Below are positions 5,037 through 63,700 of a stretch of DNA of 64,000 nt, in pieces. Both the position numbers and the translations under genes were made by a program. Each line of letters starts with the position of its first letter. Position 1 is the first letter of the stretch. Source of the DNA: Chiua virens (taxonomy: Eukaryota > Basidiomycota > Agaricomycetes > Boletales > Boletaceae); assembly GCA_019787685.1 (NCBI GenBank), contig JAHNUO010000005.1:1922001-1986000 (forward strand). The letters run 5' to 3'. The notes under the pieces are model-generated. The model had not been told where the DNA came from. It was given only the letters and a program-made list of their open reading frames with translations, and did not search any database.

Positions 5037-5974
5037 AGTGCAATACTCAGGGGGATTGAAAGAAATAGAAAGAGGGTGAAGGAATGCGATTCCGTTCGAC
5101 CCAGGGACAACACTGAGTTGGTGAACGACGAATAATGGTTTTTGAGTAGTCTGAGATGAATCCGGGGCGAATCCGGATTAAAACGGATAGAAAAGCAGAC
5201 ACAGCAGTCCAATCCAGATCGAGAAAATACAAGGAGAGTGAGAGAAAACGAACATCAACTGAAAACGATGTGAGACAGATGCACACGGGCAAAAGCTACT
5301 GTATTTTGTCAATACAGTGAATTTATAGTCCTCGGGAATACCCTCAGACTCATCCTAAGTAAGGATAATAATAAAAGAAGGTTTTTGTATGGTATAAAGT
5401 TTGAGAGGCACCTGAATGTCCCTGCAAGGGCTGTGTGACATGGTCTAGCCAATGCTAAGTACGAATAAGGAGCATCAAAAATAAAATAAAAGAGTCTGAG
5501 GCAAATCGGGCACGGATACAGCAATCCAGATGAGTTCGCACAAGCAGACAGATCAGGATTGGGATCGGGTGACGACAGGGTGCGGAAACATGCTATGCGA
5601 GCACAGGGAATACCTATTGCCTACAACGGTATTTATACTACGAGAATTGTGCACGGACCAAGAGTCTAAAAGGGGTGGCCAAGAAGAGCAGAAGGGATAA
5701 AGGCCAAAAGGAGGAATCGTACAATGCGATGGCAGCGGACGATGACAAAGATGAAATGACAAATGTGAAGCCATCAGATGATGACAAGAATGAAATGAGT
5801 AAGAGTGATGCCATCAGATGATGACGAGAAAGAAACAAGTAAGCACTCGGGTTGTGCCGGTGCAGGGTTACATACAAGGTAGAAGTGAAACGAGTATGGA
5901 GGAACATACGAGGATACCTAGGTATCGAGTAAAGTGAAGGAGTACAAGTGAAACAAAAGAAAGAAATCATAACA
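5037..5974 (-). repeat. Solo LTR, minus orientation, inserted in the gypsy Pol tail
   Basis: On the minus strand it starts TGTTATGATTTC at 5974 and follows the other LTRs of this window (10668, 50057) through the U3-like part to a TATA box at 5630-5638 (rc GTATAAATA). Downstream of the TATA box it is unrelated to them. It sits between NEGNISR and SPCDDPIDDEG of the Pol tail; deleting it restores an open frame there. The putative 5-bp target copies are GCTGT (5032-5036) and GCTAT (5975-5979), one mismatch. The inner boundary at 5034-5037 is uncertain. Confidence 0.65.
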
Positions 5975-10667: not shown

Positions 10668-11397
10668 TGTTACAATTTCTTTCTTTTGTCTCACTTGTAC
10701 CTCTTCACGCTACTTGATACCTAGGTATCTTCGTACGTTCATCCGTACGCGTTCACCTTTTACCTTTGTAACTCTGCACCGGCCTTACCCGGTGCTTACG
10801 CTCTTCTTTTCTTGTCATCGTCCGATGGCTTCGCACTTACTCATTCAATTCTCGTCATCATCCAATGGCTTCGCATTTGTCATTTCACCTTCGTCATCGT
10901 CCGTTGCCTTTGCATCATATGATTCCCTTTTTGATTACTGCGCACTCCTTTTGGCCCTTTGGCCCTTCCGCTCTTCTGGCCTTCCCCTTTTAGTTACTTG
11001 GTCCGTGCGCAGTTCTCGTAGTATAAATACCTCACAGCGATACTCCTGTACTCTAGTCTTGATCTCCGCAATCTAGCTGAGTATCACTGCTCCACTTGGA
11101 CCCTTCCTTGTGACCACTCGACCAGGGACTTCTCTCGTCGTCCCTTGACCCAACCCTTAGACTCTTAGCAGTCACCAGCGACCCTTGACCGTCCCTCGGG
11201 TATAGATTCCCAACTGGACAACTCTCAGCAACGCCTGAGTTTTCACTCGTCTCTCTGGTAGCAACCCGCTGACCAGAAATCCTTGATCAACTCTTCAGCG
11301 CACCACGTATCAAGTGGTGGTTGTTTGAGTTATCACAGCCACTTGGTACTTGGCGCTTTTGCGGCTACGTTAGGTCCTACCCGGAACTATCGTAACA
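10668..11397 (+). repeat. Solo gypsy LTR with perfect 5-bp duplication
   Basis: It starts TGTTACAATTTC and ends ATCGTAACA, so the termini TGTTAC/GTAACA are perfectly inverted. The flanking pentamers are GCAAG (10663-10667) and GCAAG (11398-11402), an exact target duplication. At 730 bp it matches the LTR at 50057-50815 closely. A TATA box (GTATAAATAC) is at 11021-11030. No internal region is attached, so it arose by LTR-LTR recombination of a complete copy. Confidence 0.95.
11021..11030 (+). promoter_or_regulatory. LTR TATA box
   Basis: GTATAAATAC in the solo LTR; the same motif after CTCGTA occurs at 50451-50460 and, on the minus strand, at 5630-5638. Conservation across three LTRs marks the U3/R promoter. 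Confidence 0.7.
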
Positions 11398-12314: not shown

Positions 12315-15300
12315 TCACTTTCTGATGTTTGTAGCTATAAAATTTTGAAAACATGCTAGAATGATCAAGAAGACTGATAACTTACAAATCAGATTCTGAG
12401 ATATGACACACATGATATGGTGTTTCATTTCCTTATGATCTTCAAAGTCATATTCAGAAATGAGCTTAGAGATTGCTTTCTTGACAGCATTGATTGTGCC
12501 AGAGGATGTGTAACGTTTGTTAGCCACTCTGAGTGGATTCTCAACACCCTGTTGGTGTAGAAAGAAGGAATGTTCTAGAATGATAGCATAACCTACATAT
12601 ATAAATGAGTGTAATCACTGAATGTGATTAAAAACCAACCAATCCCAGAATGAAGTGCTTTGCTCAATAGAGTGCTTTTCTTTGAGAACTGAAATATATC
12701 ATATGAGGTAAAAATAATGATGCAGTCAATGTACTTACAATAGATGTGGAGTGTGGTGCTATAGCTGAAGAATCTACAAGCTGATTTTAATATAAATTAA
12801 GTAAAATGGCAGGATAACAAGAAAAAAAGAATTAACATACTCTTGAAGATGCCAATATCTACAGATTTAATGTTATCATTTGTATGGTAAAATATACAAA
12901 TATTACAAACCTCCTAGGAAAGAATAAGTGAAAATGAGGGGGAAATGAAATAAATTGGCTCATACCTCCTAAATAATTTAAATGGATAAAAAAGAAAGTG
13001 TTATAATTTTTCAGGTTCTTAAGTGTGAATATGAAAGCTCACATCCTAAGTGCAGAAATATTAGTATCCTTAGGAAATAAAGTCAATGAATGATTGCCTA
13101 CAAACTATGAATAAGAGGACAAGGGCAAGACAGAGGGGCATGCATCAGCATCCTTCTGAAACCCCATTCACAATCAGAGCACTTACTAGCTATGAATGAG
13201 AGGACAAGGGCAAGACAGAGGGGCATGCATCAGCATCCTTCTGAAACCCCATTCACAGTCAGAGCACTTACTCCCTATGAATGAGAGGACAAGGGCAAGA
13301 CAGAGGGGCATGCATCAGCATCCTTCTGAAACCCCATTCACAATCAGAGCACTTACTCCCTATGAATGAGAAGACAAGGGCAAGACAGAGGGGCATGCAT
13401 CAGCATCCTTCTGAAACCCCATTCACAGTCAGAACACTTACATACTATGAATGAGAGGACAAGGGCAAGACAGAGGGGCATGCATCAGCATCCTTCTGAA
13501 ACCCCATTCACAGTCAGAGCACTTACTCCCTATGAATGAGAGGACAAGGGCAAGACAGAGGGGCATGCATCAGCATCCTTCTGAAACCCCATTCACAATC
13601 AGAGCACTTACTTCCTATGAATGAGAGGACAAGGGCAAGACAGAGGGGCATGCATTAGCATCCTTCTGAAACCCCATTCACAATCAGAGCACTTACTCCC
13701 TATGAATGAGAGGACAAGGGCAAGACAGAGGGGCATGCATCAGCATCCTTCTGAAACCCCATTCACAGTCAGAACACTTACATACTATGAATGAGAGGAC
13801 AAGGGCAAGACAGAGGGGCATGCATCAGCATCCTTCTGAAACCCCATTCACAGTCAGAGCACTTACTCCCTATGAATGAGAGGACAAGGGCAAGACAGAG
13901 GGGCATGCATCAGCATCCTTCTGAAACCCCATTCACAATCAGAGCACTTACTTCCTATGAATGAGAGGACAAGGGCAAGACAGAGGGGCATGCATTAGCA
14001 TCCTTCTGAAACCCCATTCACAATCAGAGCACTTACTCCCTATGAATGAGAGGACAAGGGCAAGACAGAGGGGCATGCATCAGCATCCTTCTGAAACCCC
14101 ATTCACAATCAGAGCACTTACTGGCTATGAATGAGAGGACAAGGGCAAGACAGAGGGGCATGCATCAGCATCCTTCTGAAGCCCCATTCACAATCAGAGC
14201 ACTTACATACTATGAATGAGAGGACAAGGGCAAGACAGAGGGGCATGCATCAGCATCCTTCTGAAACCCCACTCACAATCAGAGCACTTACAAGCTATGA
14301 ATGAGAGGACAAGGGCAAGACAGAGGGGCATGCATCAGCATCCTTCTGAAGCCCCACTCACAATCAGAACACTTACATACTATGAATGAGAGGACAAGGG
14401 CAAGACAGAGGGGCATGCATCAGCATTCTTCTGAAACCCCATTCACAATCAGAGCACTTACTTCCTATGAATGAGAGGACAAGGACAAGACAGAGGGGCA
14501 TGCATTAGCATCCTTCTGAAGCCCCATTCACAATCAGAGCACTTACATACTATGAATGAGAGGACAAGGGCAAGACAGAGGGGCATGCATCAGCATCCTT
14601 CTGAAACCCCATTCACAATCAGAGCACTTACTTCCTATGAATGAGAGGACAAGGGCAAGACAGAGGGGCATGCATCAGCATCCTTCTGAAACCCCATTCA
14701 CAATCAGAGCACTTACATACTATGAATGAGAGGACAAGGGCAAGACAGAGGGGCATGCATCAGCATCCTTCTGAAACCCCATTCACAATCAGAACACTTG
14801 CATACTATGAATGAGAGGACAAGGACAAGACAGAGGGGCATGCATCAGCATCCTTCTGAAACCCCATTCACAGTCAGAGCACTTACTTCCTATGAATGAG
14901 AGGACAAGGACAAGACAGAGGGGCATGCATCAGCATCCTTCTGAAACCCCATTCACAGTCAGAGCACTTACTCCCTATGAATGAGAGGACAAGGGCAAGA
15001 CAGAGGGGCATGCATCAGCATCCTTCTGAAACCCCATTCACAATCAGAGCACTTACATACTATGAATGAGAGGACAAGGGCAAGACAGAGGGGCATGCAT
15101 CAGCATCCTTCTGAAACCCCATTCACAATCAGAGCACTTACTTCCTATGAATGAGAGGACAAGGGCAAGACAGAGGGGCATGCATCAGCATCCTTCTGAA
15201 ACCCCATTCACAATCAGAGCACTTACTCGCTATGAATGAGAGGACAAGGGCAAGACAGAGGGGCATGCATCAGCATCCTTCTGAAGCCCCATTCACAATC

Positions 15301-17832
15301 AGAACACTTACATACTATGAATGAGAGGACAAGGGCAAGACAGAGGGGCATGCATCAGCATCCTTCTGAAGCCCCATTCACAATCAGAACACTTACATAC
15401 TATGAATGAGAGGACAAGGGCAAGACAGAGGGGCATGCATCAGCATCCTTCTGAAACCCCATTCACAATCAGAGCACTTACTGGCTATGAATGAGAGGAC
15501 AAGGGCAAGACAGAGGGGCATGCATCAGCATCCTTCTGAAACCCCATTCACAATCAGAACACTTACATACTATGAATGAGAGGACAAGGGCAAGACAGAG
15601 GGGCATGCATCAGCATTCTTCTGAAACCCCATTCACAATCAGAGCACTTACTTCCTATGAATGAGAGGACAAGGGCAAGACAGAGGGGCATGCATCAGCA
15701 TCCTTCTGAAGCCCCATTCACAATCAGAGCACTTACATACTATGAATGAGAGAACAAGGGCAAGACAGAGGGGCATGCATCAGCATCCTTCTGAAGCCCC
15801 ATTCACAATCAAAGCACTTACATACTATGAATGAGAGGACAAGGGCAAGACAGAGGGGCATGCATCAGCATCCTTCTGAAACCCCATTCACAATCAGAGC
15901 ACTTACTGGCTATGAATGAGAGGACAAGGGCAAGACAGAGGGGCATGCATCAGCATCCTTCTGAAACCCCATTCACAATCAGAACACTTACATACTATGA
16001 ATGAGAGGACAAGGGCAAGACAGAGGGGCATGCATCAGCATCCTTCTGAAACCCCATTCACAATCAGAGCACTTACTTCCTATGAATGAGAGGACAAGGG
16101 CAAGACAGAGGGGCATGCATCAGCATCCTTCTGAAGCCCCATTCACAATCAGAGCACTTACATACTATGAATGAGAGGACAAGGGCAAGACAGAGGGGCA
16201 TGCATCAGCATCCTTCTGAAACCCCATTCACAATCAGAGCACTTACATACTATGAATGAGAGGACAAGGGCAAGACAGAGGGGCATGCATCAGCATCCTT
16301 CTGAAACCCCATTCACAATCAGAGCACTTACTCCCTATGAATGAGAGGACAAGGGCAAGACAGAGGGACATGCATCAGCACCCTTCTGAAACCCCATTCA
16401 CAATCAAGGTACTTACTTTCTATAAATGCAAAGACATGAATCAGATCTTGTTACCATGACTATTAACTTGTAGTACATATAAGCTTGCTTACCTCAACAT
16501 GTGGAAACCATGATGCAATTCTTGTCCACATGGACTGCTGTTCAACACTAGTCAGTGACTCATTCAACTTGTGTTTATGCTCTATGAGAGGTATCAAAAT
16601 CCTATAAGATATGTTAACAGATACATGCTCAAAAGGATGTACGCTTTATCTAATTACCTTTCCATGGCAAACTCAATGCAGAGCATGATATTTGTGTGTT
16701 GTGCGGTCACAAGTAGCATTTGCAGGGCTTCTCCGTCTAGGGCCCTCATAGTCATTTCAATGAGAAGTTTACACCCCTCATCAGACCTGTCCAAGTCTTT
16801 ATGTATGACATCAGTTTACATGTCATGTAAAAGGAAAGTTTGTATATACATACCCCTTAACTCCACCTTTGCTGTTGGTTTATACTTCATGCTCTTTACC
16901 TTTCCCCATACAGGATTATTCTTTAACATGCTGTCAGCATTTTGCTGTCCCCTCACAAGTCTTTCCTCTCGGGGTAACTTTTGCTCCTCCAGTGTTAAGG
17001 CTGCAAGGCCTTGCAGCAGAAGTGCATCACATTTTGTGAGCACAAGTACAACAGGCACTGCAAACAAACATGAAAAAATGAACAAGTTGTCATTACAGTT
17101 GAGGAATGTTTACCATTTCCTGTGTCACACTCATCGAAAAACTTTTCCTCGGCAGCCAAGACTGCCCGGTGGTATTGATCCATAGGAATACAGTACCTAT
17201 TCGATAACATGTCATTGTTGGTACGTGCTGCTGTTTCTGGTTACGATTACCATATGGCATGGATACGCTTCTTCAGGAATGTTGTATTCGCGCGGTCCGA
17301 AACAAAGTCCTTCATTTCCTCGAATTCTTCTATACTTCCAGCTTCGAAGCCCTGCGAGTCGTGAAAGATGAAATTCGGGTTGCTTCGAAAGACCAATTCA
17401 TTCTCGATATTATGAATTCCGCGCTAGAGATGTGTTAGTTGAATGTTACCGATAACGAGGTCACAGTCACGGAACTGTGCCTGTGGAACTTACATCCGTG
17501 GTTCCCTCGATCTGTGCTAGATCGACCTGATCGCAGACCATTAGTGTCCCGTGTCCACGTCTCATGAGGAATTGGCATACCTTCTTTCCACTTCCATCGT
17601 AGACCTCTGGATCTTCTGTAGAGTTACAGATCTGCTTGAGTATCGTAGTTTTCCCAGCGTTGGCACGGCCAATGATAAGGATTCTGAAACGTCCGAATTT
17701 CTCTCTGAGGTTGTCGATCTGTATGGTAGTAGATTCTGCGGGAACGCCACCGGAGGATCCTCCAAGCGCTTCTCCAGGGACGTCTGCGGGAGCTTTGGAG
17801 CGAAAGAATGGGAGGCGAGTGAGCATTTTCAT
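12315..17832 (-). CDS. P-loop GTPase domain protein with a tandem micro-exon region
   Basis: Reconstructed exons on the minus strand: 17832-17581, 17526-17494, 17423-17251, 17196-17114, 17057-16854, 16796-16658, 16601-16493, forty 3-nt exons (16419 to 13102), GAT 13045-13043, GAG 12968-12966, GAG 12913-12911, 12858-12841, 12780-12739, 12688-12640, 12592-12386, 12334-12315. Every junction is GT-AG (one GC-AG) and the frame stays open for about 390 codons. Residues 55-63 are the P-loop GRANAGKTT, D117-S-Q-G is the G3 motif, and T188-K-C-D is G4, so it should bind and hydrolyse GTP. A helical C-terminal part follows. It resembles the G-domain proteins expanded in mushrooms, of unknown role. The first seven exons end exactly in phase 0 before the repeat array. 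Weak points: the use of the micro-exons and the exact 3' end. Confidence 0.82.
13102..16419 (-). repeat. 39 x 85-bp array: 82-nt intron plus single-codon exon per unit
   Basis: The period is exactly 85 bp across 39 units with no indel (13102 + 39 x 85 = 16417). Read on the gene strand, each unit starts GTAAGTGCTCTGATTGTGAA, ends in a pyrimidine-rich tract and CTCATTCATAG, and is followed by 3 nt before the next GTAAGT. Those triplets vary: TAT 16, GAA 8, GGA 8, CCA 3, and CTA, CTT, CGA, TTT, AAA once each. No stop codon occurs among the 40. The intron body changes only at a few scattered positions. One unit has a GC donor (14800-14801). CTGAT inside each unit fits a CTRAY branch site. The array may alternatively be an inert minisatellite inside one long intron (16492-12859). 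Confidence 0.95.
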
Positions 17833-22301: not shown

Positions 22302-22850
22302 CTACGCACGTCCCAGGATTGATTGTCCCAGATTAATTCTAGTTTTGGGATCCATAAGCTTACATTTCGCGAAATGAGCTGCATGATCACTTACGACGCT
22401 AGTGTCTGTGTCCGATTGGAGGGGACGCGGACGCGGAGGGGGAGAGGGAGGGGGGAGAGGGAGACGCGGAAGGGGACGCGGAGGGGGGGGAGGGGGAGGG
22501 GGAGGGGGAAAGGGAGGGGGGGGAGGAGGACGCGGAAGGGGACGCGGAGGGGGACGCACGTCGACATCGGTCTTCCTGTCGTCGGCCGCATCAACGTCAT
22601 ACATCCCAGAGGCCAGGACGCCATCTGCCCCGGTGTCATCAATCCCAATGTCATCGAACGCGTTGTCATCGGCTTCGTCGTCATCGACCAACCCGGTAGC
22701 ATGGGGATGTGAAACCGAGGCCAGGCTGCCACTGTCATCAACCCCACTACTATTTATAACGCTCTTGGTCGACCCAGGAGCCTGGGGGGGCGGGATCGAC
22801 AATGCATTAGAAAAGAAGAGTGAAAGCACGACTAAAGGGATGAGTAACAT
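22302..22850 (-). CDS. Secreted proline-rich protein
   Basis: An ATG at 22850 opens a 182-codon frame. Residues 1-20 (MLLIPLVVLSLFFSNALS) form a typical signal peptide with cleavage expected near Ala-Leu-Ser. An acidic region follows (LVDDDEADDNAFDD), then about 50 residues of nearly pure Pro with Arg, Leu or Phe spacers (PRPLPRPPPPPPFPP), then a short basic tail. This suggests an extracellular or wall-associated polyproline protein; no enzyme domain is seen. A perfect donor GTAAGTGATC near 22398 may start an intron, so the last 30 codons are uncertain. The plus strand here is a long G-run (22435-22560). Confidence 0.65.
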   Translation of the reverse strand: MLLIPLVVLSLFFSNALSIPPPQAPGSTKSVINSSGVDDSGSLASVSHPHATGLVDDDEADDNAFDDIGIDDTGADGVLASGMYDVDAADDRKTDVDVRPPPRPLPRPPPPPPFPPPPPPPPPPRPLPRLPLPPPSPPPRPRPLQSDTDTSVVSDHAAHFAKCKLMDPKTRINLGQSILGRA

Positions 22851-63524: not shown

Positions 63525-63700
63525 GCCTATATAGTGATCGAGTGTAGATATAATATACATGAGAGCTATGTAGTGATTGAGTGTGAATAGAATGGATATA
63601 CGAGAACTATGTAGTGATTGTGTGAATAGAATGGATATGCAAGAACTATGTAGTAATCAAGTGTGAATGCAATGACTATGCAGTGCTATATAGGCTACAG
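63525..63700 (+). repeat. Right subterminal tandem repeats, about 42-bp unit
   Basis: Four units of the type (G)AGAACTATGTAGTGATTGAG + TGTGAATAGAATGGATATAC, the first diverged (TATATAGTGATCGAG). They carry the same CTATGTAGT core as the left end. Confidence 0.85.

Follow-up and report, generated by a model that had tools for sequence, protein, structure and literature searches.

The question raised by this locus is whether a segment of a protein can be encoded one codon per exon over dozens of consecutive exons. The window, that is, the whole stretch of 64,000 nucleotides (nt) analysed from the basidiomycete Chiua virens (assembly GCA_019787685.1, contig JAHNUO010000005.1, positions 1,922,001 to 1,986,000), was found to contain a GTPase gene on the minus strand (17832-12315), which was modelled with 54 exons, 43 of them 3 nt long. 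The reading frame was open from the ATG at 17832 to the stop at 12315 (502 residues plus the stop), the 3-nt exons made up 129 of the 1509 coding nt, and 52 of the 53 modelled introns were of the GT-AG type, the other one being GC-AG. The one-codon exons comprised the 40 slots of a tandem array followed by three further exons downstream (at 13045, 12968 and 12913), which were flanked by unrelated, non-repeat introns. It is probable that the 40 slots are predicted exons spliced singly, and that they encode a fast-evolving linker reshuffled by recombination in the introns under diversifying selection.

The array (13102-16419) was found to contain 39 introns between 40 triplets, and all of its periods were exactly 85 bp (82 + 3), as had been claimed in a first-pass annotation made from the letters of the window. 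It was recognised by Tandem Repeats Finder as a single 85-bp array (score 5838), and a 23-nt core word occurred 39 times in it versus 0 times in 100 shuffles. The introns, which that annotation had called identical, were near-identical, with a mean pairwise difference of 0.024 per site, but 16 distinct sequences were present among the 38 compared. The slot differed by 0.557 per site, and its least variable column was still more variable than any intron column. The earlier description of the variation as the reverse of neutral decay holds. The absence of stops among the 40 triplets (0/40) and the phase-0 end of the preceding host exons, with exon 7 ending in SWFPHVE, were likewise borne out by the gene model. 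All donors in the model were GT except that of the exon at 14804-14802 (TAT), which was GC (GCAAGT), and the last array slot (13104-13102) was followed by the donor sequence GTAGGC.

The array had been presented as a feature of a single locus, and this was not upheld. The junction CATTCATAG-NNN-GTAAGT was found in 1323 exact copies on both strands of the Chiua virens genome, with none for the reversed control pattern, and the 84-nt unit had at least 1115 matches. The GTPase exons had 213 genome matches, which fell at about 70 distinct places when counted by hand among the roughly 150 matches listed. A hand check of the 37 junction sites present among the matches listed of the 1323 placed each of them downstream of a same-strand GTPase match, at a distance of no more than 5 kb. 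In total 24 arrays were read, namely that of the window, 18 further arrays and five more; L027, L029 and L030 were read from inside their arrays, and their 5′ parts are missing. GTPase exons lay directly upstream in the same sense in 17 of the 18 further arrays, and L015 contained only the C-terminal exon within the stretch read. The C-terminal exon (YAIILEHSFFLHQQG...) was present in the window and, L016 excepted, also followed each of the 18 further arrays (17/18). In L028 and L031 (C19, C39), L010 and L011 the introns, about 85 nt long with an 88-bp period, formed a second subfamily; its body was clearly different, the slot plan was the same and the codon set was much the same.

The slot was found to be 3 nt long in all 608 recognised junctions of the 24 arrays, one of which (in L020) lies 2.6 kb beyond its array and is likely due to chance. 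The remaining 101 acceptor-like sites were inspected by eye and fell into three groups: AGs that overlap a slot, final slots whose donor is GTAGG, and AGs located elsewhere. The introns within the arrays were 58-90 nt long (filter 57-97 nt) and followed no rule of three. Stops occupied 4 of the 608 slots (three TGA and one TAA) versus 75.4 ± 5.3 in 5000 within-array shuffles, the minimum of which was 57; when each codon was counted once per array, stops amounted to 4 of 179 versus 17.8 ± 2.9, and a value as low was reached in 0 of 5000 shuffles. Genome-wide, the 1323 exact junctions contained four TGA, no TAA and no TAG slots. When units were located by the intron core alone, both splice sites were kept in 591 of 599, and this core-only search serves as the control for a unit search in seven diverged arrays, which required near-consensus sites. 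In those seven arrays (193 units) the diversity was 0.005 at the donor GT, 0.000 at the acceptor AG and 0.134 at the remaining positions. A branch-like CTGAT motif was found with a diversity of 0.00 at its T and A, 0.23 at its C and 0.17 at its G nucleotide; it resembles YTRAY, but other T positions were also low.

These counts bear on the simplest alternative, in which the array would be an inert intronic minisatellite, an 85-bp repeat with AG-NNN-GT by chance, removed inside one large intron. The array is indeed a clean tandem repeat, and a single 3.4-kb skip joining exon 7 to one of the later phase-0 exons would preserve the frame. Against it stand the stop depletion, the exact slots, the conserved splice dinucleotides in diverged units, the low synonymous with saturated residue variation and a plan repeated in many genes, none of which neutral decay yields. 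Such a minisatellite is extremely improbable, and its neutral form was rejected because of the number of stops, the constant length of the slot, the conserved splice sites and the stasis at synonymous positions. The reading of one codon per exon, with splicing predicted from DNA alone, was well supported by slot length, stop depletion, splice sites, the 54-exon frame and the tails of relatives described below.

The slot codons were found to differ in residue in 81% of 8824 within-array unit pairs, whereas of the 1644 same-residue pairs only 86 (5.2%) used different codons versus 35% in a random model. The mean intron diversity was 0.062, near this synonymous level. In L027, 24 identical introns of 83 nt were found together with a slot diversity of 0.576. 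Because the residues are saturated and synonymous changes rare, the slots point to selection on the protein, rather than to hypermutation or neutral decay, as the putative source of the pattern. Targeted codon rewriting or slot hypermutation, by which the triplet would be changed and the intron spared, would fit the identical introns adjoining saturated slots in L027, as well as the slot order, in which repeated runs matched the shuffled order in 21 of 21 arrays. It is nevertheless quite improbable, as the slot synonymous variation of 5.2% is not above that of the intron (about 6%) and lies far from the 35% of freely drawn triplets, and as the codon swap observed between L021 and L026 comes with linked intron variants; slot hypermutation was rejected on these two grounds.

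The codon choice in the slots was narrow, with 579 of 608 slots ending in A or T and most residues represented by one codon only. Counts were 101 GGA versus 5 GGT, 23 CGA versus 0 CGT, 18 CCA versus 0 CCT, and 68 CTT versus 3 CTA, and the third base genome-wide was C in 3 and G in 30 of the 1323 junctions. The avoidance of G is likely due to the fact that a slot ending in AG would form a second acceptor and so delete itself. A need to avoid NAG (a second AG acceptor) and NGT (a cryptic GT donor) would account for some of this choice, but not for the avoidance of NTA and NCT.

Paralogs with 97-99% identical flanks were found to share the intron consensus (L027/L029/L030, L022/L025 and L012/L013), and in 4 of 6 pairs of near-identical paralogs the tails aligned no better than shuffles. 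In the pair L021/L026, one 86-bp unit was lost with breakpoints inside introns, and a swap of CGA and GAT came with five linked changes in the introns to either side of it, all lying within about 70 nt. In this pair, the unit with GAT was one mismatch from a unit two places away. This pattern is the expected trace of short-tract gene conversion between units. In the window array one short run (GEG) was repeated with its introns.

The diversity might instead arise at the level of splicing, as the first-pass annotation had proposed, if identical donors and acceptors paired randomly and many in-frame linkers were produced per gene. Any skip stays in frame because every slot is 3 nt long and in phase 0, and a precedent exists in UBC, where, in the part of the source available, stochastic splicing across a tandem splice-site array is described as setting the repeat number (PMC10809524). 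Set against this, the DNA differences between units and between paralogs already supply a large diversity. Such a splicing-level generator is rather unlikely, and it would be compatible with single-codon splicing and reshuffling by recombination. Combinatorial skipping as such is neither supported nor excluded by the DNA, and recombination in DNA appears to be the better-supported generator, since the diversity lies between units and between paralogs.

A comparable segment was found on intronless contigs of other Boletales. P0115, a 467-residue frame on an intronless contig of 1695 nt whose source label, lgn, we take to denote assembled public reads, equals P0114 (Pisolithus tinctorius) up to SWFPNTK. 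It is then followed by 44 residues (DLPPYEQ...) rich in Q, E and Y, at the point where P0114 joins the C-terminal part. Four contigs labelled jgi (1.5-1.7 kb) contained the full protein without introns, and in these the variable segment at this position was 12 to 28 residues long. In five intronless tails (124 amino acids) I, M, C and S were absent, versus 18.4% upstream in the same proteins, and the slots contained 1.2%. These sequences support the suggestion that the tails on the intronless contigs of relatives have an alphabet similar to that of the slots and occupy the same position.

The G domain of the window protein matched MMR_HSR1 (PF01926) with 26.3 bits (cut-off 21.9), and the relative P0012 scored 21.8 bits, slightly below the cut-off. 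The best protein matches came from Chiua virens, a bolete, itself. The 11 Pfam families listed for the window protein were GTPase families, MMR_HSR1 being the best, and included none of NACHT, NB-ARC, WD, ANK or TPR. An assignment to the immunity-related GTPases (IRG) or to dynamin-like proteins was not adopted, as fold matches exist that are not clear of other G proteins. A profile search of solved structures returned short P-loop stretches only. The AlphaFold2 model of P0012 (mean predicted local distance difference test, pLDDT, of 85) contained the G domain and helices, followed by a low-confidence stretch at about 310-341 and a C-terminal helical bundle. Because this low-confidence stretch precedes the bundle in the model, and because the conserved C-terminal exon comes after the array, the array segment is predicted to be a linker between the G domain and the C-terminal helical domain and not, as first described, a protein tail.

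A mechanism joining these observations would run as follows. Each 82-nt intron would be spliced out individually through intron definition, probably starting at the 5′ end and moving towards the 3′ end, and the upstream exon would thereby lengthen by one codon at each step. Because the introns are near-identical, they would likely also provide the homology that allows recombination out of register. Where gene conversion or unequal exchange breaks inside introns, whole codons would be gained, lost or swapped, always in frame and with the splice sites intact. Diversifying selection on the amino acids, predicted to act as it does in fungal non-self recognition genes, would maintain diversity in the codons as the introns become homogeneous. 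In this scheme we infer the order of splicing, the process of recombination and the role in recognition. On a wider view, which is put forward tentatively, the approximately 70 paralogous GTPases may form a single-codon shuffling system that uses introns as recombination handles and generates somatic or germline diversity for non-self recognition; if so, the intron would play the part of the constant region and the codon that of the variable one.

Several findings weigh against singly spliced codons that are reshuffled by recombination. Four TGA slots were found among the exact junctions, at C2:2553691, C8:1529933, C11:1028464 and C11:1028636 of the genome of the window. In L021 a TGA slot was found where the near-identical paralog L026 contained CGA, and some arrays may for this reason be broken or ending early. 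The Nei-Gojobori estimates were pN 0.664 and pS 0.353, a ratio of only 1.9-fold, because multi-step codon paths inflate pS. Slots ending in G before the donor were 28 of 608, yet ordinary exons, counted at the donors of the two exons before the array, ended in G in 34 of 34. The tails of L021/L026 clearly aligned and those of L027/L030 partly, which weakened the proposal that tails are unrelated in every pair of near-identical paralogs. Repeated codon runs beyond shuffles (p < 0.05) were found in 0 of 21 arrays, which counts against the reshuffling since block duplication is the usual product of unequal exchange and was not visible in the codon runs. Block duplication, although expected, was for this reason set aside as the main source of tail diversity.

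The evidence from relatives also has points on this side. The five tails and their borders were chosen by eye from 12 proteins from outside NCBI that pass WFP. Of the remaining seven, P0101 fits, P0016 and P0022 terminate immediately, and I, M, C or S occur in the tails of P0086, P0017, P0018 and P0040. The labels jgi and lgn are no proof of cDNA. In most NCBI models of the GTPase family the protein ends ahead of WFPH or directly behind it, which would be expected of a gene finder unable to place 3-nt exons. When databases were searched with the predicted linker and the C terminus, nothing was returned at E ≤ 0.01. The early stops of P0016 and P0022 right after WFPH, as would occur under intron retention, and the four stop slots in the exact-match set would suit a regulatory array, in which slow or incomplete splicing delays or destroys the mRNA and codons need only be non-stop. 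This explanation is very improbable, as it leaves unaccounted for both the diversified residues with frozen synonymous sites and the restricted alphabet.

The features of the window gene are listed in Table 1. The end of the last exon is uncertain, with a GTAAGT inside the exon.

Table 1. Features of the GTPase gene in the window, with exons as predicted in the gene model.
Feature	Positions	Strand	Basis
GTPase gene, 502 residues plus stop	12315..17832	-	54-exon model
Exons 1-7, G domain and following helices	16493..17832	-	Pfam PF01926, homologs
Exons 1-4	17832-17581, 17526-17494, 17423-17251, 17196-17114	-	gene model
Exons 5-7, ending SWFPHVE, phase 0	17057-16854, 16796-16658, 16601-16493	-	gene model
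Array of 40 one-codon exons (K GYYEYPYYEYPYYREYGEYYEYEYLYPGEGYGEGYGGLF) and 39 introns of 82 nt	13102..16419	-	repeat and gene model
One-codon exon TAT, then GC donor GCAAGT	14802..14804	-	gene model
One-codon exon GAT, outside the tandem array	13043..13045	-	GAT in 12/12 paralogs compared
One-codon exon GAG; other paralogs CAG or CAT	12966..12968	-	paralogs and gene model
One-codon exon GAG	12911..12913	-	paralogs and gene model
18-nt exon (ILASSR), phase 0	12841..12858	-	paralogs and gene model
42-nt exon (LVDSSAIAPHSTSI), phase 0; 51 nt in paralog L009	12739..12780	-	paralogs and gene model
49-nt exon (FSKKSTLLSKALHSGIG)	12640..12688	-	gene model
Last exon, conserved C-terminal helical region (YAIILEHSFFLHQQG...)	12315..12592	-	window and 17/18 arrays

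Elsewhere in the window, two 40-bp tandem arrays were found at 5741-5843 and 10809-10915, the consensus units of which look reverse-complementary by eye. A G-rich tandem repeat of 12-39 bp was found at 22419-22557 within open frames whose translation is rich in Gly and Arg on one strand and in Pro and Arg on the opposite one; a tandem repeat of about 39-41 bp in 3-4 copies lies at 63527-63682. Scans of the window against Rfam (at the gathering threshold) and for tRNAs gave no match.

A literature search on such arrays, on single-codon exons and on fungal microexons, which left out subscription journals and preprints, found no description of a one-codon exon array. If the reading of the slots as exons is true, this gene family would be the first to have a protein segment built one codon per exon, dozens consecutively, with the introns as spacers, so that recombination would edit the protein codon by codon without frameshift. 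Three questions are thereby made testable, namely how a 3-nt exon is spliced between introns of the same sequence, whether identical splice sites pair in order, and how arrays are kept homogeneous in one part and diverse in another.

Introner elements spread to many genes, whereas the introns seen here, among the sites listed, were confined to one position of one gene family, in tandem. In the accessible part of the source, introners of Micromonas and others are described as many near-identical spliceosomal introns per genome (PMC3879977). Functional microexons are stated, in the portion of PMC11121469 available, to have been previously undescribed in filamentous fungi before that of Trichoderma Xlr2, which is likewise a short in-frame exon in a fungus. 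As far as that portion goes, it is the lone microexon of one gene and acts as a switch, with neither array nor hypervariability. The micro-exon genes (MEGs) of schistosomes are described, in the available text of PMC5825161, as having symmetric exons of 6-36 bp over about 80% of the coding region and as an alternative-splicing system for protein variation. The likeness lies in the succession of short symmetric exons, which can be skipped without loss of frame, whereas the exons of the window gene are 3 nt long, make up the small coding share given above and lie between near-identical tandem introns, so that the gene falls outside the MEG definition as given there.

The polyubiquitin gene UBC, as described in the accessible part of PMC10809524, is alike in having tandem splice sites at repeat boundaries and a unit number varied by splicing. 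Its unit is a domain of 76 residues and its AGGT is one dual-specific element, whereas in the Chiua array the codon stands between a separate acceptor and donor. The repeats of fungal NOD-like receptors (NLRs; NWD/HNWD and others) are described, in the available part of PMC4986451, as being under concerted evolution, with variable repeat number, shuffling within and between family members, and diversifying selection on a few codons per repeat. From that description, the likeness is in evolutionary mode only, the introns of the arrays being homogeneous and of the same consensus between paralogs and the codons diverse. The conserved part of those NLR repeats is protein (WD, ANK, TPR), whereas in the Chiua array the conserved part is the intron and the variable part is a predicted exon of one codon.

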